Source: Actinotalea sp. JY-7876
GTDB taxonomy: Bacteria > Actinomycetota > Actinomycetes > Actinomycetales > Cellulomonadaceae
Length of the DNA stretch: 64,000 nt
Direction of reading: 5' to 3'
Assembly (NCBI RefSeq): GCF_014042015.1
Contig: NZ_CP059493.1
Location: 2,542,001-2,606,000, forward strand
Below are positions 5,834-31,139 of this stretch, piece by piece. Made by a program: the position numbers and the translations under genes. Every line of letters begins with the position of its first letter. Position 1 is the first letter of the stretch. The notes beneath the pieces were generated by a model. That model was given only the letters and a program-made list of their open reading frames with translations. It searched no databases and was not told the DNA's origin.

Positions 5834-8512
5834 TCAGTGGAAGTAGCCGACCGCGTCGAGGATCAGGTGCGAGGTGCCCTGGTCGTTGTAGAGGCTCACG
5901 CGCCCCCCCGCACCGACCGGGACGACGACGGCGTTGGCCTGGGTCCTGCCGCTGCCGCTGTTGACGTCCGACGTCGGCGTCAGCGGGAGTCCTGCGGGCC
6001 ACAGCCGCGCGTGCGTGACCGGCGCGCTCTGGTTCACCGCGGTGAGGGTGCCGGCCACGGCCTTGGCGTTCGCGGGGACCTGGCCCCCGGTCACGAGGAC
6101 GGACCGCACCTCGCGGGGGCCGAAGGGCGCGCCCGAGCGCGTGTCCAGCAGCCGCGAGGGCTGGATGGGGGTGAACAGCGTGCCGGTCACCACGCCGGGC
6201 TGCGCGTACCACCCCACGACGTCGACGACGGCGTGCGCCCCCGCCCCCTTGAGCGTCAGCGAGATCTTGCCGTCGACGACCGGCACGACCGCGCGGTTGG
6301 CGACGTCGGCGCCGGGGGCGAGGTTGACCGTCGAGGTCGCGGGCAGCGCGCCCGAGCCGTACGCGACGACGTAGCCGTTGCCCGACGCGCGGGTCGAGGT
6401 CACGTTGACGGTCACGGCGCCCAGCGAGGACGCGGGCACGCCGAGCACCGTCGCCACGTCCACCACGCGGGTGGCGCCGTCGGTCAGCGGTGCGCCCGAC
6501 CGCGAGTCGAAGGCTCGCACCGGGTCGACGGGGGTGAACCGCGCGGAGCCGCCCAGGTCGGTCGTGTAGTAGCCGAGCACGTCGACCAGGTAGTGCGTGG
6601 TCCCGGCGGCGTTGAAGATGCTGATCTTGCCGTCGCCGCCCACGCCGACCGTGACCATGCTGGCCTGCGTCCGGCGGGCGTCCGTGTTGAGCACGGAGGC
6701 CCCGGGCATCGGGAGTCCCGCGGGCCAGATGCGCAGGTGCGTGTCCGTGACGGCCCCGACGGCGGTGACGTTGAGCACGACGGCCGTCACACCCGACGTC
6801 GGGACGCCTGCCCGGCCGAGCACGGTGACGTCGGCGCGCTGGCCGGCACCGAGCGACTGCACCGTCGTCCTCGTGTCCACGAGCCGCGTCGGCGTCACGG
6901 GCACGTAGCCCGCGTTCGCGACGAGCGGCACCGCGGCGACCGGGGGCGGGTCCGCCGGACGGCGCACGGTCACCGTCGTGCGGAACGGCGCCGTGGTGGC
7001 GCCGGCCGCGTCCGTCCCGGTGAGGGTGAGGTCGTAGGTCCCCGGTCCGACGTAGGCCGGCTCACCCGCGGGGCGCGGGGCGTAGGTGCCGAACCAGGTC
7101 GCGTTGAAGCGCTGTCCCGCGGCGGCGGTGCCCGTGGTCGTCAGGACGGTGCGGCGGCTGCTGCGGTCCACGACCGAGAGCGTCCACGTGAGGGCGGTGC
7201 TCGCGGTCGCCCCGATGCTCATCTGGGATCCGTGGTCGATCGTCGTCGCGGAGACGCCGACGCCCTCCAGCGTGGGCGTCGTGGACCGCGGCCGCCACCA
7301 GCTGGACAGGAGGCCGAACGACGGGCTGTTGATCGTGGCGTTGCCCGTGCTGCACTCGACCCGCGCCCTCGTCACCCGGCCGCCCAGCTCCCCCGAGCCG
7401 GTGCGGCTCACGACGACGAGGTTGCGCAGGGTGCCGCCGGACGGGCAGGACTGCGCGACGCGCGAGACGCTCAGCGTGCCGGACCACCGGGTCTTGTCGT
7501 CCCCGGGCGCGGTGCCCGACCAGGGATCGGCCTTGGAGACCTGGTACGGCAGCGTGCTCGCCGTCGTCCATCCGCCGTTGGACGAGGAGAACTCCGTGAA
7601 CGCGACCTTGCCGCCGTAGGTCTGGATGCGCCCGGCCGTGGCGGCGATGGCCGCGTTCGTCGACGCGGCCTCGTAGGACGTGGTCAGCGACCCCGCGGCG
7701 TTGGCCGCACCGCGTCCCGAGTACACCTGGCACGCGGTCGTGTCGCACAGCGCGCTGCCGTTCATGACCTTGTACCAGGCGTACGAGCGCGCCGCGACGG
7801 ACTGCGCCTGCAGCGCCGCCGGTGCCCAGCTCGAGGGCGACTCGCGCGGGACGACGCTCTTGAGGTAGTCGTCCATGGGCAGCGAGTTCGTGAGGTTGAA
7901 GCCGACGCCGCTCGTCGGCACCACCCGCAGGTCACCGCGGTACCACGTGCCGCTCGTCGCCGTCGGGGAGGCCGCGACGACCATGCCGTACTCCTGCTGC
8001 GACTCGAACCGCAGCGTGCCGGTGTAGGTGCGCGTCTCGGTCACCGCGCCACCCGGGACCGAGCGCCGCTGCGCCGTGACGCTCTGCCCCGAGACGGTGA
8101 CGGTCCAGCGGCCGGGCGGGAGGACCTGCTCCTTGTTGATCTCCCCCATCCGGATCGGGCGGTTCTCCGGGCTCCACACCGTGACCGACGTGGTCGGGGT
8201 GTACGCGGTGAGGGCCACCGTGACGTACTGGCCGGCGATCGTCCCCGGCGTCGTGCCGGGGTAGTAGAAGGCCAGGATCTCGTCAGCCGATCGCCCCTGG
8301 AGCCCAGCACCCTGGGCGCCCCACTGCGACATGCCGCGGCCGTGGCCCCAGGCGCGGCCGTCGACCGTCCACTGGCCGGAGGCGGGTGCGGGGTAGACCT
8401 CCTCGGCGGCCGTGGCCGTGGGGGCGCCGGCGAGGCCGACGAGCCCGGCGGCCAGCAGGGCTGTCGCGGTCACGGAGGCGAGGACTCGACGCAGAGGGTG
8501 CACGGAGGTCAT
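5834..8512 (-). CDS. Exported SpoIID/LytB-domain protein with three C-terminal LDTR-type repeats
   Basis: An 892-residue protein. Residues 1-35 are a signal peptide (ALLAAGLVGLAGAPTATA then AEEVYP). WGHGRGMSQWGAQGAG at about 55-70 and LPMDDYLKSVVPRESPSSW followed by LQAQSVAARSYA near 210-247 identify a SpoIID/LytB domain, a fold whose known members cleave glycan strands or enhance wall amidases. An Ig-like linker resembling FlgD (about 430-530) follows, then three repeats at about 535-650, 657-770 and 777-892, each with L/F-D-T/S-R near its start and VDVLGYY or VDVVGWY near its end. The same repeats end the amidase at 17528 and the CAP protein at 25483. The first ATG of the frame gives 36 extra residues that block the signal peptide, so I chose the later one. 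Confidence 0.88.
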   Translation of the reverse strand: MTSVHPLRRVLASVTATALLAAGLVGLAGAPTATAAEEVYPAPASGQWTVDGRAWGHGRGMSQWGAQGAGLQGRSADEILAFYYPGTTPGTIAGQYVTVALTAYTPTTSVTVWSPENRPIRMGEINKEQVLPPGRWTVTVSGQSVTAQRRSVPGGAVTETRTYTGTLRFESQQEYGMVVAASPTATSGTWYRGDLRVVPTSGVGFNLTNSLPMDDYLKSVVPRESPSSWAPAALQAQSVAARSYAWYKVMNGSALCDTTACQVYSGRGAANAAGSLTTSYEAASTNAAIAATAGRIQTYGGKVAFTEFSSSNGGWTTASTLPYQVSKADPWSGTAPGDDKTRWSGTLSVSRVAQSCPSGGTLRNLVVVSRTGSGELGGRVTRARVECSTGNATINSPSFGLLSSWWRPRSTTPTLEGVGVSATTIDHGSQMSIGATASTALTWTLSVVDRSSRRTVLTTTGTAAAGQRFNATWFGTYAPRPAGEPAYVGPGTYDLTLTGTDAAGATTAPFRTTVTVRRPADPPPVAAVPLVANAGYVPVTPTRLVDTRTTVQSLGAGQRADVTVLGRAGVPTSGVTAVVLNVTAVGAVTDTHLRIWPAGLPMPGASVLNTDARRTQASMVTVGVGGDGKISIFNAAGTTHYLVDVLGYYTTDLGGSARFTPVDPVRAFDSRSGAPLTDGATRVVDVATVLGVPASSLGAVTVNVTSTRASGNGYVVAYGSGALPATSTVNLAPGADVANRAVVPVVDGKISLTLKGAGAHAVVDVVGWYAQPGVVTGTLFTPIQPSRLLDTRSGAPFGPREVRSVLVTGGQVPANAKAVAGTLTAVNQSAPVTHARLWPAGLPLTPTSDVNSGSGRTQANAVVVPVGAGGRVSLYNDQGTSHLILDAVGYFH

Positions 8513-8564
8513 TTCGTCAGGCGCTGGGCGCAGATGAGGACTCGGGCGGTCCGGACGCCTCGGT

Positions 8565-11147: not shown

Positions 11148-11153
11148 CAGGCC

Positions 11154-11159
11154 ACTGTA
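11154..11159 (-). promoter_or_regulatory. Candidate leaderless -10 (TACAGT) for the bifunctional glycosyltransferase
   Basis: TACAGT on the minus strand with exactly six bases to the GTG at 11147. No purine-rich ribosome-binding site fits. This decides the start. Confidence 0.5.
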
Positions 11160-11206
11160 GAGGCTGGACCGCAAGGGCCTCGCTCACCGGCGGCCCGTGG
11201 ATGCTC

Positions 11207-11212
11207 TACCCT
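11207..11212 (+). promoter_or_regulatory. Candidate leaderless -10 (TACCCT) for the coiled-coil gene
   Basis: TACCCT is 7 bases before the ATG at 11220 with no ribosome-binding site. It sits back to back with the promoter of the minus-strand glycosyltransferase. Confidence 0.5.
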
Positions 11213-11219
11213 CGCCTTC

Positions 11220-11570
11220 ATGCCGTCCGATCCCCCGTCGACGCGTGCAGAGTGGCACGCCGGACTCTCCCAGAAGGACCGCGAGGCCCACGCTCGCATG
11301 GCGCAGGTCGCCGCCGACGAAGAGCCGGCAACCATGCGCCGACGCCTCGACGCCCTCAATGCCGAGCTGAGCGTGCTGCGCGCTGCGGTCGACCTCCGCT
11401 CCCGCCTCCTGCACGAGCAGTCGGTCGCGCTCACCGAGCGCGACGCCCGCATCGCCGAGATGTCCTCCGAGCTCGACCGCCGCCAGACGGGCGACCTGCC
11501 GCGACAGGCCGTGCGCCGCGTCAGGCGCGTCATCGGTCGCGTGGTGCGCACCGGCCTGCGACAGACATGA
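11220..11570 (+). CDS. Small coiled-coil protein coupled to a glycosyltransferase
   Basis: A 116-residue protein, too short for named domains. The middle (MRRRLDALNAELSVLR through LTERDARIAEMSSELDRR) reads as a continuous amphipathic helix with heptad-like leucines and alanines, and the tail is very basic (AVRRVRRVIGRVVRTGLR). There is no signal peptide or membrane segment. The stop overlaps the next start as ATGA, so it is translated with the GT2 enzyme at 11567. A role as scaffold or membrane-tethering partner of the glycan assembly enzymes is inference. I do not recognise a family. Confidence 0.65.
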   Translation: MPSDPPSTRAEWHAGLSQKDREAHARMAQVAADEEPATMRRRLDALNAELSVLRAAVDLRSRLLHEQSVALTERDARIAEMSSELDRRQTGDLPRQAVRRVRRVIGRVVRTGLRQT

Positions 11571-13123: not shown

Positions 13124-13171
13124 GGCGCAGCGGCCGGGCGCGGCCGGCCTCGGGCCCGCCGCGCCGCCTCA
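13121..13171. terminator. Possible bidirectional terminator between convergent transferase genes
   Basis: TGAGGCG at 13121-13127 pairs with CGCCTCA at 13165-13171, and an inner CGGCCG-ggcg-CGGCCG hairpin lies at 13131-13146. The outer arms include both stop codons. There is no T tract, so it is a weaker candidate than the others in the window. Confidence 0.4.
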
Positions 13172-14533
13172 GCTGCGGCGCGCGAGCCGCCAGCGGATCT
13201 TGGCGACCACCTGCCGCACGCCCCCGTCGCGCAGGTGGCGGACGGCGGCGCGTGCGTCCTGGCGGACCTGCTGCAGGCGCGGCGGACGCGGCACCGGGGC
13301 GGCGTGCGCCGCGGCCGTGAGGCGGTGCGCGTCGGCGGCCCGACGCGGCTCCCGGCAGAACTGCACCAGGGGCTCCAGCACGACCGGCCACGTGAAGCCC
13401 GCCGCGACCTCGCGGACGGCCGCGCGCGCGGCCCCGCGCGCGCGCTCGTCGGTCAGCATCGCCTCCAGGGCCTCGACGAGCGCGTCCACGTCCTCCGCCG
13501 GGACCGTGCGCCCGAGGCCGCGGGCCTCGATCAGCTCGGCGAACGAGTCGCCCTGCGTCGCGACGATCGGCAGGCCGGCCCACAGGTAGTCCAGGATGCG
13601 CGTCCGGAACGAGAACTCGGTCTCCACGTGCGGGAAGTGGCAGCTCACGCCGACGTCGGCGTCGAGCAGGTGGTCCGCGCGCGACTCGTAGGGGACCCAG
13701 TCCTCGTTGAAGAACACGTGCCGACCGGTGAGGCCGAGCTCGTCGGAGAGCTCCCGGCACCGCGTCGCCACGGCCATCTCCGGGACGTCCGGGTTGGGGT
13801 GCTTCATGCCGAGGAAGAACAGCCGGACCTCGGGCACCGTCTCCTTGAGGCGGTCCACGGCCCGCACCAGGCTCAGCGGGTCGAACCAGTTGTAGACGCC
13901 GCCGCCCCACAGGACGACCTTGTCGTCGACGCCGATGCCCCGGACGGTGCCCTTGATCGCGCGCCGGGCCTGCACCGGCGGCTCCGGCGCGGTGCCGAAC
14001 GGCACGATCGTGATGAGCGAGCGCAGCGACGGGTCCGCGTCGTAGGTGTCGGGGTTGATGCGTCCGGCGGCGGCCAGCTGGCCGATCCACAGGTCGCGCT
14101 GCCGGCGGGACGCGCACAGGAACAGGTCACCGCGGCGCACCTGGTCCGACAGCTCGCCGAGCGCGAAGGCGAGCGCCTGGTTCCGCGCGGCCTCGGGCTT
14201 GTACCTGTCGACCTCGAGCGTCTCGAGCTGGAAGGGGTCGTAGAGGTCGACCACGAGCACCTGCTCGCAGGTCTGCAGCCACGGGAAGGCGTTGAAGACG
14301 AAGCCCTGGATCACGACGACGTCGCTCGCCTCGACCTCCGCGCGGAAGTCGCCGACGCCGATCTGGCGGACGTCGAAGCCCTCCCCCGACCGCGTGCACC
14401 GGCCGAAGGTCACCAGGCGCACGTCGTGCTCCGTGGCGAGCGCGCGCGAGATCTCCCACGCGCGGATGGCCGGACCGGCCATCCGGTCGGTGATCGTGTC
14501 GAGGGTCACGACCAGGACCCGGCGGGCGGTCAC
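13169..14533 (-). CDS. Family 4 glycosyltransferase
   Basis: A 454-residue GT-B enzyme. VLVVTLDTITDRMAGPAIRA is the N-terminal acceptor-side loop (the DRMAGPAIRAWE form is typical of actinobacterial GT4). VVLWGGGVYNWFDPLSLVRA opens the donor domain. Further on come DVGVSCHFPHVETEFSFRTR, DYLWAGLPIVATQGDSFAELI and GLGRTVPAEDVDALVEAL. The C-terminus is basic and may touch the membrane. Its GTG overlaps the Wzt-like gene's stop (GTGA), making it the last gene of the methyltransferase-Wzm-Wzt-GT operon. It probably builds part of the glycan that this exporter moves. Confidence 0.85.
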   Translation of the reverse strand: MTARRVLVVTLDTITDRMAGPAIRAWEISRALATEHDVRLVTFGRCTRSGEGFDVRQIGVGDFRAEVEASDVVVIQGFVFNAFPWLQTCEQVLVVDLYDPFQLETLEVDRYKPEAARNQALAFALGELSDQVRRGDLFLCASRRQRDLWIGQLAAAGRINPDTYDADPSLRSLITIVPFGTAPEPPVQARRAIKGTVRGIGVDDKVVLWGGGVYNWFDPLSLVRAVDRLKETVPEVRLFFLGMKHPNPDVPEMAVATRCRELSDELGLTGRHVFFNEDWVPYESRADHLLDADVGVSCHFPHVETEFSFRTRILDYLWAGLPIVATQGDSFAELIEARGLGRTVPAEDVDALVEALEAMLTDERARGAARAAVREVAAGFTWPVVLEPLVQFCREPRRAADAHRLTAAAHAAPVPRPPRLQQVRQDARAAVRHLRDGGVRQVVAKIRWRLARRS

Positions 14534-15720
14534 GACCAGCGCCCGTCGAGCGCCAGGTAGCCGCCGGACTCGACCGGCGTGCCGTAGTCGACGTTGAGCG
14601 TCGCGGCCTCACGCAGGTAGTCGTAGGTGTGCGTGGTGGAGGAGTCGACGATGGACGCCATGAGCTGGAAGCTGCCGGGCTGCAGCGCGACCGCCGGGAT
14701 CCGGCACTCGACGACGCCCTCGCCCTCGATCGCCGCGATCGGGTGGTTCGTGTCGCGGGTGTTGTTGGCCCAGAGGTACACGCCGTCGTGGGACTCGAGC
14801 GCGAGGCCGAAGACCGGGTCGGCGATCCGCTCCTTGGCGGTGTAGCGGATCCGGATCACCACCGGGTCCCCCGTGCGCACCGTCTCGGCGGGCGCGCCGT
14901 CCTGGAGCAGCTCCACGGCGTCGATGACCGCCTCGCCGCTGCCCCAGCGGACGCGACCCTGCGCGTCGACGCGCGCGTCGTGCCGGGTCGAGTCCAGGTA
15001 GCGCTCGAGGATGGGCTTCGCGTCGCCCGTCTCGACGAGGTTCCCGTGCTCGAGCCACGCGACCGTGTCGCACATGTTGCGCAGCGAGGGCATCGAGTGG
15101 CTCACCACGACGACCGTGCGCCCCTCGCGGCTGAACTGCGTGAACTTCTGCGTGCACTTGTCCTGGAAGGCGGCGTCACCGACGGCGAGCACCTCGTCCA
15201 CGAGGAGGATCTCGGGGTCGACGTTGATCGCGACCGAGAACCCGAGGCGGACGTACATGCCGGACGAGTAGTTCTTCACCGGCTGGTCGATGAACTGCTC
15301 GACCCCGGAGAAGTCCACGATCTCGTCGAACTTGCCGTCGATCTCCTTGCGCGTCATGCCGAGGATCGAGCCGTTGAGGTAGACGTTGTCGCGCCCCGAC
15401 AGCTCCGGGTGGAAGCCCGAGCCGACCTCGAGCAGCGCCGCCATCCGGCCCCGCGACGTGATCGTCCCCGCGTCCGGCGCGAGGATGCCGGCGATGCACT
15501 TGAGCAGCGTCGACTTGCCCGAGCCGTTGTCACCGACCAGGCCGAACGTGCTCGCGGCCGGGATCTCGAACCCGACGTCGCGCAGCGCCCAGAAGTCCTC
15601 GTACACCGACCGCCGGCCGCGCATGATCGCGGCCTTCAGGCTCTGGTTGCGCTCGTGGTAGACCCGGAACCGCTTGGAGACACCGTCGACGGTCACCGCC
15701 GCCGCACCACCCGCCGTCAC
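14530..15720 (-). CDS. Polysaccharide ABC exporter ATPase with C-terminal substrate domain (Wzt-like)
   Basis: A 396-residue protein. Residues 1 to about 250 are an ABC ATPase: GDNGSGKST (Walker A), NYSSGMYVRLGF (variant signature, usual in the Wzt/TagH family), ILLVDEVLAVGD (Walker B) and VVVSHSM (switch histidine). Residues about 260-396 form a beta-rich domain with RVRWGSGEAVIDAVELL and VVIRIRYTAKE, matching the Wzt carbohydrate-binding C-domain, which in characterised O-antigen exporters recognises a modified chain end. The start is the GTG overlapping the permease stop; the frame is open far upstream but that is shadow. It works with the permease at 15717. Confidence 0.92.
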   Translation of the reverse strand: MTAGGAAAVTVDGVSKRFRVYHERNQSLKAAIMRGRRSVYEDFWALRDVGFEIPAASTFGLVGDNGSGKSTLLKCIAGILAPDAGTITSRGRMAALLEVGSGFHPELSGRDNVYLNGSILGMTRKEIDGKFDEIVDFSGVEQFIDQPVKNYSSGMYVRLGFSVAINVDPEILLVDEVLAVGDAAFQDKCTQKFTQFSREGRTVVVVSHSMPSLRNMCDTVAWLEHGNLVETGDAKPILERYLDSTRHDARVDAQGRVRWGSGEAVIDAVELLQDGAPAETVRTGDPVVIRIRYTAKERIADPVFGLALESHDGVYLWANNTRDTNHPIAAIEGEGVVECRIPAVALQPGSFQLMASIVDSSTTHTYDYLREAATLNVDYGTPVESGGYLALDGRWS

Positions 15721-16553
15721 AGCACCTCCGCCAGCTTCGCCTGGTTGCGTGAGAACACCCGTCCGCCCACGGCGAGCGCGACGACGGTCCAGCCGACGCA
15801 CCACGCGAGCGAGTCGAGCTCGGGGAGCCGGTTGTCGTAGAGCAGGTTGCGGAACACCTCGACGAAGCGCTCCATCGGGTTGAGGCGGTACAGGTCCAGG
15901 ATCGTGACCGACCCGAGCAGCGGCCCCGTCCGCTCGGAGATCCCCGCGACGTACGACACCGGGTAGAGGATCGGCGTCAGGTAGAACCACGCCTGGAACA
16001 CGATCGTGACGAAGTGCTGGGTGTCGCGGAAGTACACGTTCGCCATCGCCAGCATCATGGCGACGCCCGTCGCGAAGAGCGCGAGCAGCACCATCATGAG
16101 CACGACCCCGGGGATCCACAGCCACACGTCGGCGCCGAGGAACACGAGCACGACGGCGAGCACCAGCATCTCGATCGCCCAGGTGAACATCGCCGCGAGG
16201 GAGCTCGAGGCGACGAGCGTCACCCGCGGGAAGGCGACCTTCTTGATGAGGTTCTCGTTGCCGACGAGCGAGCCCATCCCCGACGTCACGGTGTTCGTGA
16301 AGAAGCTCCACGGCAGCAGGCCGCACATCAGCCACACCGCGAAGACGTTGAGCCCGCTGGGGTCGCCGACATCGGCGGGGATGTTGATGATCACCGAGAA
16401 GACCGCGGTGTAGATGAGCATCAGGGCGATCGGGTTCGCGAGCGACCAGAGCTGCCCGAGCGCCGTGCGCTTGTACTTGCCCTTGATCTCGCGCCGCGTG
16501 AGGTTGACCAGCAGCTCGCGGGAGCCGCCGAGCTCTCGGAGGAGGGTGATCAC
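15717..16553 (-). CDS. Polysaccharide ABC exporter permease (Wzm-like, ABC-2 type)
   Basis: A 278-residue integral membrane protein with six predicted membrane segments. LVNLTRREIKGKYKRTALG is the amphipathic N-terminal helix typical of Wzm, TagG and RfbA permeases. FFTNTVTSGMGSLVGNENLI, FPRVTLVASS and YFRDTQHFVTIVFQAWFYLT are conserved family regions. It forms the channel that carries the finished glycan across the membrane. Start and stop both overlap the neighbouring genes by GTGA, so stoichiometric translation with the methyltransferase and ATPase is likely. The in-frame upstream extension lies inside the methyltransferase gene and was discarded. Confidence 0.92.
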   Translation of the reverse strand: MITLLRELGGSRELLVNLTRREIKGKYKRTALGQLWSLANPIALMLIYTAVFSVIINIPADVGDPSGLNVFAVWLMCGLLPWSFFTNTVTSGMGSLVGNENLIKKVAFPRVTLVASSSLAAMFTWAIEMLVLAVVLVFLGADVWLWIPGVVLMMVLLALFATGVAMMLAMANVYFRDTQHFVTIVFQAWFYLTPILYPVSYVAGISERTGPLLGSVTILDLYRLNPMERFVEVFRNLLYDNRLPELDSLAWCVGWTVVALAVGGRVFSRNQAKLAEVL

Positions 16554-17437: not shown

Positions 17438-17527
17438 CGCAGCTCGCTCTCCTCCTGGGCACTGCCGGGAAACGCCGCGTCAGCATACCGGCCGCACCGT
17501 GGCGGCCGGTCGCGCGGGCTCACCGCG

Positions 17528-20293
17528 TCAGCGGTAGAACCCGTAGACGTCGGCGAGGACGTGCGTCTGGCCCAGGTTGTTGTAGACCTGCACCCCGGCC
17601 GGGGAGAGTCCGACGACGGCGTTGTTCGCCTGGTCGCGGCCGCGGCCGGTGTTGAGGTCCGACGTCGGCGGTCGCCCGGCGCCGGCCGGCCAGACCGTGA
17701 GGTAGGTCACCGGGGACGTCTGCTGGGTGGTCGTCAGGGTGATCGCGGCGGCCCGCGCCGTCGCGGGCAAGCCCGCGACCGACGACATCGGGAACGTCCG
17801 GGACTGCCCCGCACCGATGGGACCGCCGCCCGCGCGGGTGTCGAACGCCCGCACCGGCGCGATCGGCGTGAACCGACCCGTCGCGCCCGGACCGAACCAG
17901 CCGACGACGTCCAGGACCACGTTCGCCGGGGCACCCGCCAGCAGCACGTCGACCTTGCCGCCGTTCAGCGGCACGGTCGTCCGGTTCGCGACGTCGGTGC
18001 CGGGCAGGTGGTTGACGCTGGACGTCTGGCCCGCGGCCGCACCGGCCGGGACGACGCTGACGTAGCCGTTGCCGCCCGACACCACCGACGTCACGTTCAT
18101 CACCACGGCCGTCGCGTCGGCCGGGATGCCGCCCTGCCCCGCGACGGTGACGCTGCGGCGCTGCCCGTCGCTCATCCGCCCACCGGTGGTGCGCGTGTCC
18201 AGCACCCGCGCCGCCGTCCCGAGCTGGGCGTAGCCGCTGCCACCGCTCGTCGTGTAGTAGCCGGTCACGTCGACGAGCACGTGGGTGGACCCGGCGCTGT
18301 TGTAGAGGCTGATCTTGCCCTCCCCCCCGACGCCGAGCGTCACACCCGACGCGGACGCCGAGCGGGCGGCGTCGGCGTTGAGGACCGAGGCACCGGGGCG
18401 GCTCTGCCCCGCCGGCCAGGCGCGCAGGTGGGTGATGGTCGACGAGTTCACCGCCGTGATGTTCACGGCGACCGCCTTCGCGTCGGCGGGGACCCCGCCC
18501 ACGCCGGCCACGACGACGTCGCGTCGCGAGTCCGGGCCGAGCGACTCGGCGAGCGGTCGGGTGTCCAGGACGCGGGTCGGGGTCACGGGGACGAAGCGCA
18601 GGTCGCCCGTCAGGGGCACCGGCGCGACGGTGGCGGGGTTCTGGCTGCCCGTGACGGTCACGGTCGCCGAGTAGGGGTGGATCGCCGCACCACCGGCGCC
18701 CGTGCCGCTGAGCGTGAGGCGGTAGGGCCCGGGCCCGACCGGACGCCCGGCGCTGTTGTTGCCGTCCCACGTGGCGACGACGCCGCCGAACGCCTGCTGC
18801 CCGTAGCCGATGGAGGCGTGGACCAGCACGCCGGTCCGGGCGTCCCTGGCCTCCAGCCGCCAGTTGATGTCGCCGAGGGTGCGTGCGGCGAGGGTGACGG
18901 CCGAACCCTGCCGGACCGACGCGGGCACCGACGGGTTGACCAGCGACGGGGCGGCGAGCTGCGCCGCACGGGTCCGGATGTTCGGCAGCGTCGCGTAGCC
19001 CGCGTTGCCGGGGCACGCCGTGTTGCCGACGTCCCGGTGCGCGAAGACGACCGGGAGGGTGACCGTCGCCCCGGCGGGGTACTTCGAGTTCTCCCCGCCG
19101 AGCGTGCGGAAGCTCATCGTGCCGTTGGGGTCGCGGTGGTACTGGCGCAGGCGCCACGCGGCGAGCTGCGCGATGCTCTCCTGGACCGCCGCGCCCGGGT
19201 TGACCTGGCTGTAGTCGCCGAGCATCGAGATGCCCACGGTGCCGGTGTTGAACCCGCCGGCGTGCACGCCGATGACCGGCTGGGTCAGGCTGTTCGCCCG
19301 TCCCTCGTAGATGTTTCCCCACTTGTCGACGATGAAGTTGTAGCCGATGTCGCACCAGCCGCGGGACTCGATGTGGTAGCGCTGGTCGTTGCGGATCTGC
19401 TGCTTGGCCTGGTCGACCGAGGAGTACGCGTTCGAGCCCGCCGTGTGGTGGACGACGACGCCGACGAGCTGTGACGCGGTGTCCGGGCTGCAGACCTGGG
19501 CGCGCGCGCCCCACTCGGCACGGCTGATCACGCGCGGCTGGGTGGCGGTGAGCACCGGGCCCGCGGCGGGGACGTCCGCGGCGGCCTCGACCGGCGTCCA
19601 GGCCGCGGTCTCGACGGTCATGGCACCCTCGTCGTCGGACGCCGCCTCGGGCGAGCCGATCAGCGCGAGCGCCATGTCCTGCGGACCGCCCTCGGGCGTC
19701 GCCCGGAACGACAGCTGCACGGCGTCCGCGTCGCCGACCCAGAGCGGGTCGGTGCCGTTGCGGAGCGCGTTCGCGGCGTCGGGCGAGCCGGGGTCGGGGC
19801 CGTCGTCGGCCGGCTCGAGGGGCACCCACTCGCTCCAGCTGCCGGCGGCGCGGGTCCGCACCTCGAGACCGAGGTCGGCGACCTCCTCCTCCGCCGGCCA
19901 CGTGACGCCGAGCGTCTGGAACGTCTCCGTCTCGAGCACCTCGCCCTCGACGCGGTCGGCCACGACCTCGTCCGCCACCACGACGGACGGGTCGGCCTGA
20001 CCCGCGGCGACCTCGGGCGTCAGGGCCACCTCGCCGTCCTCGTCCACGGGGGGCACCACGACCTCGACCTCGGTGAAGGTGCCGTCCTCGCCGGCGGCGG
20101 CGGGGTCCTCGGTCGTGGGCACGCCGCGCGCGGCCGGGGTCGCCGTGGTCGTCGCGGTGGTGGTGGTCGTCGCGGCGGTGGTCGTCGCGGTGGTGGTCGT
20201 GACGGCACCCGCGGGCGCCGGGGACACCGTCGAGGCGAGGACCGTCACGGCTGCGGTCACGAGGGCGACGGCGGCTGGGCGGAGGAGAGTCAT
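17528..20293 (-). CDS. Exported PGRP-type N-acetylmuramoyl-L-alanine amidase with three LDTR-type repeats
   Basis: A 921-residue protein with a signal peptide ending near APAGA, then a threonine/alanine tract and an acidic region. Residues about 250-445 are a peptidoglycan-recognition amidase: VISRAEWGARA, VVHHTAG with a zinc histidine, GYNFIVDKWGNIYEGR, and AHRDVGNTACPG with the second histidine and the cysteine ligand. It should cut the bond between muramic acid and the stem peptide. A FlgD-like Ig domain (about 453-560) precedes three repeats at about 566, 689 and 805 to the end, the same module as in the SpoIID and CAP proteins. I start at the ATG of the signal peptide, not 20 residues upstream. 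Confidence 0.92.
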   Translation of the reverse strand: MTLLRPAAVALVTAAVTVLASTVSPAPAGAVTTTTATTTAATTTTTATTTATPAARGVPTTEDPAAAGEDGTFTEVEVVVPPVDEDGEVALTPEVAAGQADPSVVVADEVVADRVEGEVLETETFQTLGVTWPAEEEVADLGLEVRTRAAGSWSEWVPLEPADDGPDPGSPDAANALRNGTDPLWVGDADAVQLSFRATPEGGPQDMALALIGSPEAASDDEGAMTVETAAWTPVEAAADVPAAGPVLTATQPRVISRAEWGARAQVCSPDTASQLVGVVVHHTAGSNAYSSVDQAKQQIRNDQRYHIESRGWCDIGYNFIVDKWGNIYEGRANSLTQPVIGVHAGGFNTGTVGISMLGDYSQVNPGAAVQESIAQLAAWRLRQYHRDPNGTMSFRTLGGENSKYPAGATVTLPVVFAHRDVGNTACPGNAGYATLPNIRTRAAQLAAPSLVNPSVPASVRQGSAVTLAARTLGDINWRLEARDARTGVLVHASIGYGQQAFGGVVATWDGNNSAGRPVGPGPYRLTLSGTGAGGAAIHPYSATVTVTGSQNPATVAPVPLTGDLRFVPVTPTRVLDTRPLAESLGPDSRRDVVVAGVGGVPADAKAVAVNITAVNSSTITHLRAWPAGQSRPGASVLNADAARSASASGVTLGVGGEGKISLYNSAGSTHVLVDVTGYYTTSGGSGYAQLGTAARVLDTRTTGGRMSDGQRRSVTVAGQGGIPADATAVVMNVTSVVSGGNGYVSVVPAGAAAGQTSSVNHLPGTDVANRTTVPLNGGKVDVLLAGAPANVVLDVVGWFGPGATGRFTPIAPVRAFDTRAGGGPIGAGQSRTFPMSSVAGLPATARAAAITLTTTQQTSPVTYLTVWPAGAGRPPTSDLNTGRGRDQANNAVVGLSPAGVQVYNNLGQTHVLADVYGFYR

Positions 20294-20309
20294 GGGAGTC
20301 CTGTCTCGA

Positions 20310-20315
20310 AGGCTA
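20310..20315 (-). promoter_or_regulatory. Candidate -10 (TAGCCT) of the amidase gene
   Basis: TAGCCT on the minus strand lies 16 bases before the ATG at 20293, leaving a very short leader containing AGGAC. It faces the rmlB promoter in a 191-base divergent region. Confidence 0.4.
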
Positions 20316-20316
20316 G

Positions 20317-21480
<1,164 letters not shown>

Positions 21481-21519
21481 CCCACCTGTCACCGTGCGCA
21501 CGCCGGTGACGCTCATGCG

Positions 21520-22482
21520 TCACCGGCGGCGGGCCGCCACCGCGCTCGCGAGCATGTCGTGCAGCGTCGCCTCGGGCCGCCAGCCCAGCACGCGCTCGAT
21601 GCGTCCGGTCGCCGCCACGACGCGGGCAGGGTCGCCGGGTCGACGACCCGCGCGCACGGGCTCGACGTCCGACCCCGTCAGCGCGCACAGCCCCGAGACG
21701 ACCTCCCGCACGGACGTGCCACGCCCCGTGCCGACGTTGAGGACCTCGTGGCGGTCGGGCGACCCCGCGAGGTGGTCGAGGGCCGCGAGGTGCGCCCTCG
21801 CGAGGTCGAGGACGTGGACGAAGTCCCGCACGCCCGTCCCGTCCTCGGTCGCGAAGTCGTCGCCGAAGATCACGGGCGCCTCGCCCCGCTCCAGGCGCGC
21901 GAGGACGATCCCGACGAGGTTGGCGTCCTCGTGGTCACCGAGGTCCGGCCAGCCGGCACCCGCCACGTTGAAGTACCGGAGGCTGATCGCGCGCAGCACC
22001 CCCGCGTCGGCGGCCGCCCGCACGAGCCACTCCCCCGCCAGCTTGGTCTCGCCGTACGGGTTCACCGGACGGGTCGTCGCGTCCTCGTCGACGTCGACCA
22101 GGCCGGTCTCGCCGTAGACCGCCGCGGACGAGGAGAAGACCAGACGCCCGACCCCGGCGTCCTCCATGGCGGAGACGACCTGCGCCAGACCGGTGACGTT
22201 CTGCTGGTAGTACCACGCCGGCCGCCGCACCGACTCCTCGACCCGCTTGCGCGCCGCGAGGTGGACGACGTCGGTCACGCCCCGCTCCGCCATCAGGCGG
22301 GAGAGCCGCTCGACCGCGGACGACGCCGCGAGGTCCATCACCTCGAGCGCGACGCCCGGGAGGCGGTCGGCGTCGCCGGTCGACAGGTCGTCGACCACGA
22401 CCACGGGCAGGCCGCTCGCCACCAGGAGGCGGACGACGTGCGCGCCGATGTACCCCGCGCCCCCTGTCACCAGAACTGTCAC
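21520..22482 (-). CDS. galE: UDP-glucose 4-epimerase
   Basis: A 320-residue extended SDR enzyme interconverting UDP-glucose and UDP-galactose. VLVTGGAGYIGAHVVRLL is the NAD-binding Rossmann motif, VVHLAARKRVEESVRRP the substrate loop, FSSSAAVYGE holds the catalytic serine, and NPYGETKLAGE the Tyr-x3-Lys pair. ALRYFNVAGA-like sequence (SLRYFNVAGAGWPD) and GTGRGTSVREVV are also typical of GalE. Convergent with rmlB and divergent from the LCP gene. TAGGGT six bases before the GTG suggests a leaderless mRNA. It supplies galactose, or another 4-epimer, to the glycan. Confidence 0.92.
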   Translation of the reverse strand: MTVLVTGGAGYIGAHVVRLLVASGLPVVVVDDLSTGDADRLPGVALEVMDLAASSAVERLSRLMAERGVTDVVHLAARKRVEESVRRPAWYYQQNVTGLAQVVSAMEDAGVGRLVFSSSAAVYGETGLVDVDEDATTRPVNPYGETKLAGEWLVRAAADAGVLRAISLRYFNVAGAGWPDLGDHEDANLVGIVLARLERGEAPVIFGDDFATEDGTGVRDFVHVLDLARAHLAALDHLAGSPDRHEVLNVGTGRGTSVREVVSGLCALTGSDVEPVRAGRRPGDPARVVAATGRIERVLGWRPEATLHDMLASAVAARRR

Positions 22483-22488
22483 GCGGTG

Positions 22489-22494
22489 ACCCTA
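22489..22494 (-). promoter_or_regulatory. Candidate leaderless -10 (TAGGGT) of galE
   Basis: TAGGGT on the minus strand, six bases before the GTG at 22482, no ribosome-binding site. Confidence 0.5.
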
Positions 22495-22600
22495 TCGAGA
22501 GCCTCGGCGCCCCCCGCTCACGGGCGACGCGCACCCCCTTCTCCACGACTCCTCCACGGACCCGACCCGATGCCGCCGTCGGGACGGCGCCGCCCGCTCG

Positions 22601-22606
22601 TAAGAT
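22601..22606 (+). promoter_or_regulatory. Candidate leaderless -10 (TAAGAT) of the first LCP gene
   Basis: TAAGAT, eight bases before the GTG at 22615. It is the best -10 match in this divergent region; no ribosome-binding site. Confidence 0.5.
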
Positions 22607-22614
22607 CAACCTCC

Positions 22615-23859
22615 GTGACACCCCGCCACTCCGCCCCGGCGCGCCCGCGCGTCGCGCGCCACGCCCGCACGGTGCGCAGCCACCGGCTCCGTCACGTCGC
22701 CGCACTGACCACCGTCGCCGTCCTGTCGTTCGGCGCGACCAGTGCCGCGACGGCGTACGTCCGGCTCGAGAACAACATCGAGACCCATGACGTGACGGCG
22801 CAGCTCGGCGAGGACCGCCCGGTGCAGGCGGAGCCGGTCGACCCGACGGACCCGAACTCCGGCCGCCCGCTGAACATCCTCCTGATGGGCTCGGACGTGC
22901 GCGACGGCGCCAACGCGGAGATCGGCGGCGCCGTCGACGGCATGCGCTCCGACACGACCATCGTCATGCACATCTCGGCCGACCGGACGCGCGTCGAGCT
23001 GGTCTCGATCCCGCGCGACTCGCACGTGGAGATCCCCGACTGCCCCCGCTCGGACGGCACGGTGGGCGGCTCGCGGTCCACGCGCTTCAACGAGGCCTTC
23101 TCGATCGGCTCGCAGTCCGGCAACGTCGCCGACGCCGCCGCGTGCACCATCAAGACGGTCGAGTCGCTCACCAACGTGTTCATCGACGGCTGGGTCGTCG
23201 TGGACTTCGCGGGGTTCGTCAACATGGTGGACGCCCTCGGCGGCATCCCGATGTGCATCCCGAACGACATGACCTCGCCCAAGGCAGGCCTGCAGATCAC
23301 CGCCGGTCAGCACACGCTCGACGGGACGACGGCGCTGGCCTACGCCCGGGCGCGCACCGGCCAGGGCGTGGGCGACGGCTCGGACACGAACCGCCTGGGC
23401 CGGCAGCAGCAGCTGCTCGCCGCCACGGCCACGGAGGTGCTGTCCAAGAACCTCCTCACCGACTCCACGAAGCTCTACCTGTTCCTCAACGCGGCCACGC
23501 AGTCGCTCACCGCCGACCCGGACACCGGGAACGTCTCGAACCTCGCCGGGCTCGCCTTCAGCCTGCGGGACGTGCCGAGTGGGAACATCACGTTCATGAC
23601 GATCCCGTTCGGCGCGTGGTCGCAGGACCCGAACCAGGTGGTGTGGACCTCCGAGGCCGACACCATCTGGGCCAACATGGCCGCGGACGTGCCGATCGTC
23701 CCCCCGGCGGCGCCCACGCCGCCCACGGAGCCGGTCGCGCCGGGCACCGACCCGGCCGTACCGGAGCAGGAGACGCCGCCGGAGCAGGTCGTCACCGAAG
23801 CACCGAAGCCGGGTGTGGACCCGTTCACCCCGGACGACGTCCAGACCGTCTGCGGCTGA
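22615..23859 (+). CDS. LytR-CpsA-Psr (LCP) family glycopolymer ligase, first copy
   Basis: A 414-residue membrane-anchored protein. A basic cytoplasmic N-terminus is followed by one membrane segment (LTTVAVLSFGATSAATAYV). The extracytoplasmic LCP domain has LNILLMGSDVRDG, MRSDTTIVMHI, LVSIPRDSHVEIP and GFVNMVDALGGIPMCIP, with the conserved Asp and Arg residues that bind polyprenyl pyrophosphate. NRLGRQQQLLAATATEVLS is another family motif. A proline-rich C-terminus follows. LCP enzymes move glycopolymers from lipid carrier to peptidoglycan, so this is a likely ligase for the product of this locus. A second LCP gene follows four bases later. The GTG start is set by the -10 eight bases upstream; the open frame further up is shadow. 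Confidence 0.9.
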   Translation: MTPRHSAPARPRVARHARTVRSHRLRHVAALTTVAVLSFGATSAATAYVRLENNIETHDVTAQLGEDRPVQAEPVDPTDPNSGRPLNILLMGSDVRDGANAEIGGAVDGMRSDTTIVMHISADRTRVELVSIPRDSHVEIPDCPRSDGTVGGSRSTRFNEAFSIGSQSGNVADAAACTIKTVESLTNVFIDGWVVVDFAGFVNMVDALGGIPMCIPNDMTSPKAGLQITAGQHTLDGTTALAYARARTGQGVGDGSDTNRLGRQQQLLAATATEVLSKNLLTDSTKLYLFLNAATQSLTADPDTGNVSNLAGLAFSLRDVPSGNITFMTIPFGAWSQDPNQVVWTSEADTIWANMAADVPIVPPAAPTPPTEPVAPGTDPAVPEQETPPEQVVTEAPKPGVDPFTPDDVQTVCG

Positions 23860-23863
23860 GCCG

Positions 23864-25380
23864 GTGACTGACGAGGAGAAGCGCCGACCGCCGGACGGTC
23901 CACCACCACCCCCGGTCCGCCGCACGACGTCACGCGCGCGTCCGCAGGGCGCCGCGCAGCCGCAGCCTCGCCCGGCGGACCGCGGCGCGCCGCGGACACC
24001 ACCCCCGGCGCTACCCCAGTCGCCGTCGGCGCGCTCGGCACAGCCCAGGACGCCACCGCGCGCCACCCCGCCCCGCGCGAACCCCGGCCGCGCGAACCCC
24101 GGCCGCGCCACCCCGGCCGGCGCGACCCCGCCGCCGCGGTTCGATCCCGGCCGCACGGCGCCGCGCCCGACGGCCGACGGCGCGCGCCGCGTCGGCTCCG
24201 GCGGCGGCGCTGCACCGGTCGCGCCGGCCGCCGGCGCGGGAGCGGCCGGCGGCGCGCGAGCGTCCCGTGGCACGGGAGCCGGCGCGGCGTCGGCGCCCCC
24301 GCCGACCATCCGCCCGTCCGGCCGCGCCGGTGGCGAGCCGCCGGCGCGCCGCCAGGGGCCGCGGCCGCCACGCGTCCCGAGCGGGCGGGTGGCGCGGCAC
24401 CGGCGGTCGACCGGCCGCCCGTCGCCCCCGCGCGGCCGCGACGGCGAGGGCGCCGGTTCGGTGTGGCGGCGACCGTCGTCGTCGCGCTCCTGCTGGCCTG
24501 GCCGATCGGTCTGGTGCTCTGGGCGGACGGGCGCCTCGAGCACGTCCCGGCGCTGAGCGAGGCCGCGGACACGCCCGGTACCACGTACCTGCTCGCGGGC
24601 TCGGACGCGCGGGGTGACGGCGCCGTGCCCGAGGACGGCACGATCGGCGCCCGGACCGACACGATCATGCTGCTGCACGCTCCCGAGTCGGGGCCGGCCG
24701 CCCTCATCAGCCTCCCGCGCGACACGTACGCCGAGATCCCCGGCCACGGCGCGAACAAGCTCAACGCCGCCTTCTCCTGGGGTGGCGCGCCCCTGCTCAC
24801 GGCGACCGTGGAGCAGCTCACGGGCCTGACCGTCGACCACTACGTCGAGATCGGCTTCGGCGGCATCACGGGCGTCGTCGACGCGGTGGGTGGCGTCGAG
24901 CTGTGTCTCGACCGCGACGTGAACGAGCCGCTGAGCGGCCTCGTCTGGACGGCGGGCTGCCACGTCGCCGACGGCCCGACGGCGCTCGCCTTCGCGCGCA
25001 TGCGCTACGACGACCCCGAGGGCGACGTCGGCCGCGCCAAGCGCCAGCAGCAGCTCATCGCCGCGCTCAGCTCGGCACTGGCGGACCCTGCGGTGCTGCG
25101 CAACCCGGGCCGCCAGGTGTCGCTGGTCCGCGCGGGCACCGACGCGCTCGCGGTCAGCGAGGGGACGGGCGTCGTGGACCTCGGCCGCCTCGCGCTCGCG
25201 TTCCGCCGTGCCACCGGCCCCGAGGGCATCACCGGGACGCCGCCGATCGCCGACCCGGACCACCGCCCGGGCGGCGTCGGCTCGACCGTCCTCCTCGACC
25301 CGGACGCCACGCCGGGCTTCTGGGCGGGGATCCGCGACGGCTCCCTGCCCCCCGGACCCGTCGGCGGCCTGCCGGGCTGA
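23864..25380 (+). CDS. Second LCP family ligase, split by an apparent frameshift in its N-terminal region
   Basis: The GTG at 23864, four bases after the first LCP gene, opens a frame encoding a Pro/Arg/Ala-rich cytoplasmic tail (TDEEKRRPPDGPPPPP and on, with NPGRANPGRATPAGA). The membrane segment and LCP domain (YLLAGSDARGDG, ARTDTIMLLHA, ALISLPRDTYAEIP, AKRQQQLIAALSS) lie one frame back and have no upstream start before 24463. If the GGGG run at 24355-24358 had one more G, the frames would join and run through TRPERAGGAAPAVDRPPVAP and RPRRRGRRFGVAATVV into the membrane helix, as LCP proteins usually do. So either the genome has a one-base deletion or the sequence an error. A short form starting at GTG 24463 (305 residues) is possible. 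Outside the shift the ligase domain looks intact. Confidence 0.75.
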
Positions 25381-25482
25381 GCCGGGTCGGGACCCGCCTC
25401 CGACACGCCGGACCTCACACGGGCGACGGCCGTCCGGGTGAACGCGGCTCATCCCGCTCGGAGGGCTGCCGATAGGACCGAC

Positions 25483-28113
25483 ATGATCCGCAGACTCTGC
25501 GCGTGCGTCGCTGCGGCCGTCCTCGCGGTCGCCATCGGCGTCGTCACGCCGGCGGGGCCGGTGGCCCCCGCCCGGGCCGCGTCCGCGAACGCCGTCGACA
25601 CGGCGAGCCGTGCGGCCGTGGACGCCGGCTACCTCGCGCGGTGGGCGCCTGCGGCCGCCACGACCGCGGCGGTGTCCTCGACCGCGGTCCCGGCGAGCTG
25701 CACGCGCGGCTCCGTCTCGCCGTCGACGAGGACCCAGGTCCTCGCGGCCTGGAACTACGCGCGCGGGCTCGCCGGCCTGGACGCCGTGACCGAGGACCCG
25801 GCGCTGGCCGCGAGCACGCAGGAGGCGGCTGTCGTCTTCTCGCGCAACGACACGATCGCGCACTACCCGAACCCGAGCTCCGAGTGCCTCACGGAGGCCG
25901 CGAGGAAGGCGGCTGCCGGCTCGAACATCGGGATCGCGTGGGGCACGGTCCCCACCGCGGCGGCGCTCGTCAACGGCTACCTGACCGAGGAGCACGACGC
26001 CGGCCGGGACCTCGGGCACCGACGGTGGCTGCTCTACCCGCAGCTGTCGACGACCGCCGTCGGCATCGCCACCACCACGGGCAGCGGCGTCACGTACGGC
26101 CGGAACTCGGCCAACGCCCTGCGGGTCGTCGACTCGGGCCGCAACCGCGGCGCGACCGCGCCCGCCTGGGTGCCCTGGCCGACGGCCGGCTACTTCCCCG
26201 TCCCGCTCGAGCCCCTCGGTCGGTGGTCGCTCACCTCGTCCGCCCCCGACGCGGACTTCTCCGCCGCGACGGTCAGCGTCCGGGGCCCCGGGGGCGCGGC
26301 GCTGCCCGTGACCGTCTCGCGGCCGGCCCGCGGCTACGGCAACCCCACGCTCGCCTTCACGGTCGGGAACATCACGAAGCCGTCGGGGGCCGCCGAGACC
26401 GTCTACTCCGTGACCGTGAGCGGCATCAAGAACGCCGCGGCCGCGAGCCACTCCTACGAGGTCAGGCTCTTCAACCCCGGGGCACCCACCGTCTCGGCGC
26501 CCGTCGCGACGACCGTCGACCTCGGCGCGGCGGCGACGTTCCGCGTCACCGCGACGGGGTCGCCCGCGCCGACGGTGGCCTGGGAGCGCAGCACCGGCGG
26601 GAGCACCTGGACGAGGATCGCGGGCGCCACGGGCACGACGTACACGTTCACGCCCGACGCCGCCCACGACGGCCTGCGCGTCCGGGCGGTCGCGACCAGC
26701 CCGCTCGGCACCGCCACCTCGCCCGCCGCGGTGCTGACGGTCCTCAGCGACCCGGGCGTCACGAGCGGGCCGCAGGACACGGTCTTCGCCACGGGCGGCT
26801 CGGTCCTCCTGAGCGCGACGGTGTCCCGCGCGGCCGGCGCCACGTACCGCTGGGAGCGCCGGACCGGTGGCACGTGGTCGGCGGTCCCGTCGGCAGACGC
26901 GCGGACCCTGACGCTCACCGGGCTCACCGCCGCCGACGACGGCGCCCAGCTCCGCCTCGTCGTGACCACCCCGCACGGCTCCGCGACGTCCCGGACCGCG
27001 ACCATCCGCCTCGACGACCGGGCGTACGTCGCCGTCCCGCCCGTCCGCGTCCACGACTCGCGGACGACGTCGACGACGCACGGCGCGGTCACGTGCCTCA
27101 GCGTGACCGGCGCCGGCACCGGCGTGCCGGCCGGCGCCGCGAGCGTCTCGCTCAACGTGACGACCGTCCGCCCGACCGGGCCCGGCCACGTCGTCGTCTA
27201 CCCGGACACCGCGGGGACGGGCTCGACGCCCGCGCCGGCCGCGAGCACCGTGAACTTCGTCCCGGGTGCCGACGTGCCCAACGCGGCCGTCGTCGCGGTG
27301 CCCGCGAGCGGGAAGGTCTGCTACCAGGTGCGCGGGTCGCGTGCGGGCGTGGTGGTCGACCTCGTCGGCTACCTGCTCCCCGGGTCGGCGGTCACGGTCC
27401 AGATGCCGCAGCGCCTCGACGACCGCTCGGGCGTGGTGCCCGGGCAGGCGGTCCGCCTGGATGTGGCCGGCCGCGCCGGCGTGCCCGAGGACGCCACCGC
27501 CGTGCTGCTCAACGTGACCGCCGCCGGGTCGCGGGCACCCGGAAACCTGCGGCTGTTCCCCGCGGGCGCGACACCGCCCCCGACGTCCAACCTCAACTAC
27601 GCGGCCGACGGCGACCGCGCGAACGCCGCGCTCGTGCAGCTCTCCGACGACGGCGCCCTGAGCTACGTCTCCCAGACCAGCGCGGGCAACCGGCTGCGCG
27701 TCGTGCTCGACGTCGTGGGCTACACGGTCCCCGGCTCGGGGCTCGTGCCGATCGACGCGGACCGCGTGCTCGACACGCGGTCCGGCGGCGGGGCCCTGGT
27801 GGGCGGGACGAGCCGGGCGCTCTCCGTGCGCGGGACGGTCCCCGACCACGCCACCGCCGTGGTGCTCAACGTCATCGCCGTCGCGCCGACGACGATCGGC
27901 AACCTCCGGGTGTTCCCGCGCACCGCCGGCTCGACCGCGCCGCCACCGACGTCGTCCCTGAACTACATCCCGCGGGTCGACACCGCGAACCTCGTCGTCG
28001 CGACCATCGGCGCCGATGGCGAGGTCGTGGTGCACACCGACCAGCCCGCGGGCGGGCGCACCCACGTGGTCGTGGACGTCCTCGGTTACCTCACCGACCA
28101 GCCGCCGTCCTGA
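25483..28113 (+). CDS. Exported CAP (SCP-like) domain protein with two Ig-like domains and three LDTR-type repeats
   Basis: An 876-residue protein. The signal peptide (ACVAAAVLAVAIGVVTPAG) ends near ARAAS. The CAP domain, about 84-205, has QVLAAWNYARGLAGLDAV, NDTIAHYPNP and RDLGHRRWLLYPQLSTTAVG, with conserved histidines. Bacterial CAP proteins have few proven roles; wall association is common. Two Ig-like domains (about 332-512) follow, then three repeats from about 515, 636 and 753 with VHDSR, LDDRSG and VLDTRSG near their starts and VDLVGYL, LDVVGYT and VDVLGYL near their ends. The repeat matches the SpoIID and amidase tails. I chose the ATG at 25483 over a GTG 15 codons earlier because it begins the signal peptide. 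Its end overlaps the acyltransferase gene by 23 bases. Confidence 0.85.
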   Translation: MIRRLCACVAAAVLAVAIGVVTPAGPVAPARAASANAVDTASRAAVDAGYLARWAPAAATTAAVSSTAVPASCTRGSVSPSTRTQVLAAWNYARGLAGLDAVTEDPALAASTQEAAVVFSRNDTIAHYPNPSSECLTEAARKAAAGSNIGIAWGTVPTAAALVNGYLTEEHDAGRDLGHRRWLLYPQLSTTAVGIATTTGSGVTYGRNSANALRVVDSGRNRGATAPAWVPWPTAGYFPVPLEPLGRWSLTSSAPDADFSAATVSVRGPGGAALPVTVSRPARGYGNPTLAFTVGNITKPSGAAETVYSVTVSGIKNAAAASHSYEVRLFNPGAPTVSAPVATTVDLGAAATFRVTATGSPAPTVAWERSTGGSTWTRIAGATGTTYTFTPDAAHDGLRVRAVATSPLGTATSPAAVLTVLSDPGVTSGPQDTVFATGGSVLLSATVSRAAGATYRWERRTGGTWSAVPSADARTLTLTGLTAADDGAQLRLVVTTPHGSATSRTATIRLDDRAYVAVPPVRVHDSRTTSTTHGAVTCLSVTGAGTGVPAGAASVSLNVTTVRPTGPGHVVVYPDTAGTGSTPAPAASTVNFVPGADVPNAAVVAVPASGKVCYQVRGSRAGVVVDLVGYLLPGSAVTVQMPQRLDDRSGVVPGQAVRLDVAGRAGVPEDATAVLLNVTAAGSRAPGNLRLFPAGATPPPTSNLNYAADGDRANAALVQLSDDGALSYVSQTSAGNRLRVVLDVVGYTVPGSGLVPIDADRVLDTRSGGGALVGGTSRALSVRGTVPDHATAVVLNVIAVAPTTIGNLRVFPRTAGSTAPPPTSSLNYIPRVDTANLVVATIGADGEVVVHTDQPAGGRTHVVVDVLGYLTDQPPS

Positions 28114-29933: not shown

Positions 29934-29961
29934 GTCGTGCTCCTCGGTCCGGGTGGGTCGG

Positions 29962-31116: not shown

Positions 31117-31124
31117 GAGCGGGG

Positions 31125-31130
31125 AGCCTA
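31125..31130 (-). promoter_or_regulatory. Candidate leaderless -10 (TAGGCT) of purK
   Basis: TAGGCT on the minus strand, eight bases before the GTG at 31116, directly after the kinase gene ends at 31140 (minus-strand order). Confidence 0.45.
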
Positions 31131-31139
31131 ACAACCGGC

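Follow-up and report, generated by a model that had tools for sequence, protein, structure and literature searches.

A predicted beta-sandwich module carried in threes by secreted actinobacterial proteins: a putative single-chain trimer for retention at the cell wall

We report on a 64,000-nucleotide window (the whole stretch analysed) of the 3.55 Mb genome of Actinotalea sp. JY-7876 (contig NZ_CP059493.1, positions 2,542,001 to 2,606,000), in which the genes for a SpoIID/LytB protein, a PGRP amidase and a CAP protein each end in three tandem copies (a triplet) of one repeat, here called the module. Across many actinobacterial secreted proteins the module is nearly always present in threes, and most likely it holds them on the wall. 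The genes and module copies, in window positions and with the basis of each call in brackets, are:

5834..8512, minus strand, gene for the SpoIID/LytB protein with terminal triplet (Pfam and reading frame)
6557..6907, minus strand, module Sp1, first copy in the SpoIID protein (copy alignment and phmmer)
6197..6538, minus strand, module Sp2 of the SpoIID protein (copy alignment and phmmer)
5837..6175, minus strand, module Sp3 of the SpoIID protein, running to the stop codon (copy alignment and phmmer)
17528..20293, minus strand, gene for the PGRP/Amidase_2 protein with terminal triplet (Pfam and reading frame)
18245..18595, minus strand, module Pg1 of the PGRP protein (copy alignment and phmmer)
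17885..18232, minus strand, module Pg2 of the PGRP protein (copy alignment and phmmer)
17531..17872, minus strand, module Pg3 of the PGRP protein, running to the stop codon (copy alignment and phmmer)
25483..28113, plus strand, gene for the CAP protein with terminal triplet (Pfam and reading frame)
27025..27384, plus strand, module Ca1 of the CAP protein (copy alignment and phmmer)
27394..27735, plus strand, module Ca2 of the CAP protein (copy alignment and phmmer)
27742..28101, plus strand, module Ca3 of the CAP protein (copy alignment and phmmer)

As delimited here each copy comprises 113-120 residues, and 9 columns are invariant in the alignment of the nine copies. In the module consensus, R8, R13, N75 and D110 show the highest conservation. 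When three single copies were used as phmmer queries every other tail was recovered with three domains apiece (E 7.9e-12 to 1.7e-65), while the best of 2000 shuffled tails, which served as control, gave E 0.33. The nine copies in three proteins described in the original prediction are thus borne out for the window, but the count is incomplete for the genome: a search with a profile built from the nine copies, as had been suggested, returned 18 copies in six proteins with three copies each. Of the three additional triplet proteins one (L001) is encoded by a gene ending 2.7 kb ahead of the window start, with its repeats approximately 7 kb ahead, and the other two (L002 and L083) lie elsewhere in the genome. 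Comparing copies by position, the SpoIID and PGRP tails resemble each other at 62% (Sp1/Pg1), 44% (Sp2/Pg2) and 45% (Sp3/Pg3), and the CAP and L001 tails at 59, 47 and 46% for copies 1, 2 and 3; copy 1 shows this same-position likeness clearly, copies 2 and 3 only to a modest degree. Since same-position copies are alike between proteins, the tails seem, judged by these alignments, to have descended as ordered triplets.

The catalytic parts (SpoIID, Amidase_2 and CAP) were confirmed by Pfam. An Ig-like linker had been proposed ahead of all three tails; this holds for the CAP protein (Ig_3, 30.8 bits at a Pfam cut-off of 30) and falls slightly short for the amidase (FlgD_ig, 26.7 bits, cut-off 27), and ahead of the SpoIID repeats only Big_13 was matched, at chance level (E 0.7). 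The repeat had also been thought to lack a named family, and indeed no Pfam, NCBIfam or PHROG model convincingly spans the repeats in the three proteins; a sub-threshold DM13 match in the CAP protein (E 0.27) touches the start of its first copy, and a match to PHROG 3995 (tail protein) at 422-545 of the same protein covers chiefly the Ig-like part. Pfam searches of 88 triplets gave scattered matches (25 of 31 families listed, each with at most two members), and searches of PDB sequences with the repeat gave chance-level matches only. The SpoIID triplet matched none of 50,697 phage records, and a phage origin was rejected on that ground; among 72,556 plasmid records 16 were matched, 10 of them from Streptomyces. 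In two plasmid records of Paenarthrobacter ureafaciens (H6 and H7) the genes under which the match falls have an RHS repeat protein annotation. A family model would annotate many hypothetical proteins; six of the first eight annotated plasmid matches outside RHS proteins, for example, carry no functional name. Literature searches, motif strings included, listed no description of the repeat; subscription papers were largely outside reach, and this is no proof that it is unpublished. We conclude that the repeat is real and the finding sound, and that it reaches further than its earlier description.

Among named relatives, Cellulomonas came nearest in the module search. A search with the triplet as query yielded 99 confirmed loci of which 80 were kept. 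Most of these carry an Actinomycetota label (Cellulomonas, Streptomyces, Micromonospora, Acidimicrobiia and others); a few come from metagenome bins assigned to Chloroflexi, Dormibacteraeota, Spirochaetaceae and Saccharibacteria, to which binning errors may contribute. In a sample of the phylum 25 of 396 genomes had a module match. Two 4.8 Mb genomes of one family (G131 and G213) had at least 120 and at least 150 matches, with 150 candidates scored per genome, corresponding to some 40-50 or more triplet proteins apiece if all matches form triplets. Among 101 family genomes searched with the single-module profile matches were present in 13 and triplets in five, the latter with 35 proteins having exactly three copies (18, 21, 42, 21 and 3 copies per genome, grouped from the listed places). 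The other family matches are singles, one of them in a triplet-bearing genome, and one two-copy frame (G036, a genome in 240 contigs); degenerate single modules (18-35 bits; L110, L111, L112 and L115) precede beta-helix-like domains in family genomes lacking triplets.

Over all loci, 155 complete module frames (a few being one protein fetched twice) had three copies in 126 cases, one in 19, two in eight and four in two. With a stricter triplet rule and edge frames included we counted 147 triplets, 142 of them distinct. Three copies were found in 95 of the 104 module frames of the 80 loci plus the three own loci, where the query was the triplet itself and hence biased toward frames with at least three copies, and in 29 of 33 frames of 20 further loci picked by single-module searches. 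The four two-copy frames in these 20 loci come from a frame-broken gene (L095, two frames) and from two proteins of L097 (genome G288), whose copies look nearly identical by eye and in which the third copy was possibly lost by assembly collapse. The eight doubles in total are the two L097 proteins, a weak one (L114), four broken frames (L095 and L015) and L137 with a weak middle copy, and we read the two four-copy frames as a split match (L034) and a remnant lying upstream (L026). The 19 singles comprise 11 frames with a stalk or collagen, two with a fibre-like stretch by eye (L107 and L108), five weak matches (L109, L110, L111 twice, L112) and a single spurious frame (L070). The weak singles and doubles (L109-L112, L114 and L115, with L111 twice) score 18-47 bits and are mostly in beta-helix proteins; L113 has three weak copies in succession. 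Judged by copy number, there is strong support for a single trimeric unit in each chain.

The copies are separated by linkers with a median of 5 residues (at most 12 in 293 of 300). In 10 of the 142 distinct triplets the mean identity between copies is at least 70%, and up to 99%, and the number is still three. Near-identical tandem repeats would be expected to change number easily, and it is therefore likely that selection keeps the number at three. (In L086 and L087 of genome G131 the copies of a triplet are 96-100% identical at the protein level.) The nearest copy in another protein occupies the same position for 327 of 426 copies, and for 238 of 426 when close relatives are left out, to be compared with one third expected by chance. 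The 327 same-position neighbours would fit old common descent of the triplet, as would suit the idea that the repeats are ordinary spacer-type Ig-like domains with no specific ligand, numbering three by accident of history; secreted proteins often have all-beta domains adjacent to Ig-like linkers. We regard this as very improbable, because spacer repeats usually vary in number, whereas here even near-identical copies number three, singles go with stalks, and the whole unit is predicted to be rigid.

A single copy on a stalk is the other form that recurs. All 11 frames matching a stalk profile or collagen pattern carry one module each, while neither has a match among the 126 complete triplet frames. 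In L132 the single module is joined to collagen-like repeats (Pfam Collagen, 8.7e-34), and in L134 (twice), L135, L054, L107 and L108 a twin-arginine signal is followed by a glycine-rich fibre-like stretch and one module at or near the C-terminus. The stalk profile was built from four singles with the module residues excluded; in 20 genomes it returned three places already known and six new proteins, which account for six of the 11 frames and derive from two genomes only, all six having exactly one terminal module. L143, a frame of 819 residues in which a stalk-like segment with its module occurs three times, looks like an intermediate, its likeness to the L107 stalk being judged by eye. From the collagen, the heptads and the fibre-like sequence we infer that the stalks may trimerise. 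Leucine-type heptad runs of at least 14 residues precede the twin-arginine motif in six of ten stalked singletons (two proteins of L134, the minus strand of L054, L146, L147 and L149); N-terminal to the motif is an odd site for a coiled coil, which might join chains before folded export.

Structure models of the CAP and SpoIID triplets are nearly all beta, with helix limited to short turns, and the triplet is predicted to be rigid as a whole unit. For a single module the top structure match with both models was the tip of the Bd2133 fibre (8OND/8OK3), ranking above unrelated entries. The module fold is alike, but at an identity of 10% common descent is not established, and neither the module nor the triplet profile found the Bd2133 tip among PDB sequences at E up to 10. 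PMC10769870 describes the Bd2133 fibre as three chains with one module each on a beta-helix fibre, whereas the actinobacterial tail is one chain with three modules. The predicted triplet also aligned with one-chain C1q/TNF trimers (4zch, 5hkj, 5hzf and 4dou, one-chain by title, and 5kca, a Cbln1 C1q trimer aligned in one chain) with a root mean square deviation of 4.7-5.5 Å at 6-9% identity, and the three window proteins matched neither C1q nor TNF profiles of Pfam with E values allowed up to 1. By their PDB titles these single chains are constructs, whereas the actinobacterial one would be natural. A trimer-like arrangement is clear for the CAP tail only. The SpoIID model aligns less well, for example perhaps because its chain runs in the opposite sense about the axis, and Foldseek with the whole SpoIID triplet was uninformative; for the CAP tail the predicted fold gives good support for one trimeric unit per chain.

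With respect to export, a signal-like N-terminus (by a simple rule) is present in 94 of 113 triplet frames compared to 64 of 262 neighbouring coding-like frames, in keeping with the earlier expectation that the module belongs to secreted proteins. None of 121 triplet frames has a terminal membrane or sortase anchor; among 64 signal-like controls 15 have a membrane and one a sortase anchor. On the other side stands an unexplained hydrophobic window past residue 200 in 21 of 113 triplet frames. In 118 of 124 frames the triplet is terminal (at the C-terminus in 96, at the N-terminus in 22), and in the other six it is internal. In a survey of 53 chosen proteins (25 of 39 partner families listed) the recurrent partners among the families listed are Amidase_2 (5), RCC1 (4), beta-helix (4) and PKD, TIG and fn3 (3 each), and single cases are subtilase, cellulase, SpoIID, trypsin, kumamolisin, CBM_6, VanY, CHAP and 5'-nucleotidase. 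The module had been proposed to direct hydrolases in particular; since it also accompanies protease, cellulase, RCC1, beta-helix and nucleotidase domains, it is not specifically hydrolase-targeting, and the partner domains surveyed do not support this as a general role. Some of them (cellulase, CBM_6, proteases) act on outside substrates, and together with the resemblance to the Bd2133 tip, and with the TNF-like tip of the related fibre Bd2439 that binds bacterial glycans (PMC10769870), this could suggest that the triplet faces outward as a lectin or adhesin and binds foreign glycans or insoluble substrates, like Bdellovibrio fibre tips on prey, instead of anchoring to the wall of its own cell. 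We consider this unlikely: the partners in the window belong to wall-active types (SpoIID, PGRP amidase) and have LCP and glycan genes as neighbours, and with no other C-terminal anchor the proteins would be free in the medium unless otherwise retained.

Triplets of modules anchor proteins in two other systems. According to PMC6081394, three SLH modules in tandem make up a trimeric unit by which a variety of surface proteins is attached non-covalently to a wall polymer, and both SLH and CWB2 triads have a trimeric arrangement with a three-helix core. PMC4973711 describes CWB2 in Clostridium difficile as three tandem non-identical copies, N- or C-terminal, in many proteins including wall-modifying enzymes, where anchoring requires all three copies, in order and none replaceable by another, with the anionic polymer PSII as ligand. 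The actinobacterial module follows this pattern, with three tandem modules (126 of 155 frames) at a terminus (118 of 124) of varied exported proteins; position and partner variety are as in the SLH and CWB2 triads. The folds differ, since the SLH modules are helical and the CWB2 core is helical (both PMC6081394) whereas the actinobacterial module is all beta in the models, and with E values allowed up to 1 none of the three window proteins matched the SLH or the CWB2 profile of Pfam. For CWB2 anchoring has been tested by experiment; for the actinobacterial triplet it is deduced from sequence and models.

Taken together, we consider it probable that the triplet is a natural single-chain trimer which retains secreted proteins non-covalently and, though folded differently, has a role like that of the SLH and CWB2 triads. 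Within this reading, computation supports the rule on copy number, the rigidity of the fold, export by a signal and the absence of any other C-terminal anchor; it also supports an arrangement like that of a trimer, clearly so for the CAP tail alone. One trimeric domain would be encoded in a single chain as three beta-sandwich modules of approximately 115 residues with linkers of approximately 5 residues, packing round a pseudo-threefold axis as three separate chains do in a C1q/TNF-type head or the Bd2133 tip. Once the protein is exported, the triplet would bind an envelope polymer (probably a wall glycopolymer) via pockets on or between modules and would so keep the protein at the wall. Because the unit would need three modules, a chain would carry three, or else a single module whose stalk would bring three chains together. 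Anchoring at the wall by the triplet may be called a well-supported inference; more tentatively, and with the balance slightly against it, it could be a third class of triad anchor, in Actinomycetota and unrelated to SLH and CWB2, in which three protomers of the head of a stalked homotrimeric fibre were fused and by which some genomes anchor dozens of secreted proteins. The three-per-unit rule and the proposed single-chain-trimer architecture were overlooked in the original prediction.

The placing of the three genes inside a glycan locus with two LCP proteins, as earlier described, was confirmed. The locus encodes a Wzt with Wzt_C, two GT2 and one GT1 glycosyltransferases, a methyltransferase, a GDP-mannose dehydratase-like enzyme, two LCP proteins and an acyltransferase, including:

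13169..14533, minus strand, GT1 glycosyltransferase (domain scan and family-genome search)
14530..15837, minus strand, Wzt-like exporter ATPase with Wzt_C domain (domain scan and family-genome search)
21559..23859, plus strand, LCP ligase 1 (domain scan)
24463..25380, plus strand, LCP ligase 2 (domain scan)

Comparison with 22 loci by tblastn showed that these genes are conserved as a set about the PGRP triplet in one congener and at six further Cellulomonas loci, with the PGRP catalytic part together with dehydratase, Wzt and GT1 (L003, L004, L005, L007, L008, L009, and congener G050 at L104). The SpoIID part lies alongside GT2 genes in L011 and L105, in L010 the triplet adjoins dehydratase, LCP and methyltransferase with the PGRP part absent, and most remaining loci have none of the glycan-locus genes. 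In the 101 family genomes, which are related to one another, GT1 (E<1e-40) is present in 26 and Wzt (E<1e-60) in 61, each including all five with triplets. Yet 21 of the 26 GT1 genomes have no triplet. In the family sample no triplet occurs without GT1 and GT1 often occurs without a triplet, which fits a polymer that would exist for its own sake and be used as a handle by some lineages; as ligand of the triplet the locus glycan is an unproven candidate. The ligand could instead be a protein (one of the surface, or the triplet itself), which would make the triplet a docking or lattice unit. C1q/TNF-type trimers are frequently protein receptors or ligands, and the genomes with at least 120 and at least 150 module matches could build a coat, but the Cellulomonas clusters sit with glycan genes and no partner protein turned up, no search for one having been made; we judge this rather improbable.

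If retention by a single-chain trimer is correct, it would help to explain how actinobacterial secreted proteins remain at the surface without a sortase or membrane anchor, and would add an all-beta solution to two triad anchors with helical cores (PMC6081394). It would also be a natural counterpart to the engineered single-chain C1q/TNF trimers, and a rule of one or three would predict which proteins require a stalk.

Finally, the glycan locus also contains two long frames of coding-like character, 8596-11187 (minus strand) and 29863-31131 (plus strand), that have no Pfam match at E up to 0.001; the latter has a counterpart in G050 that is 53% identical.
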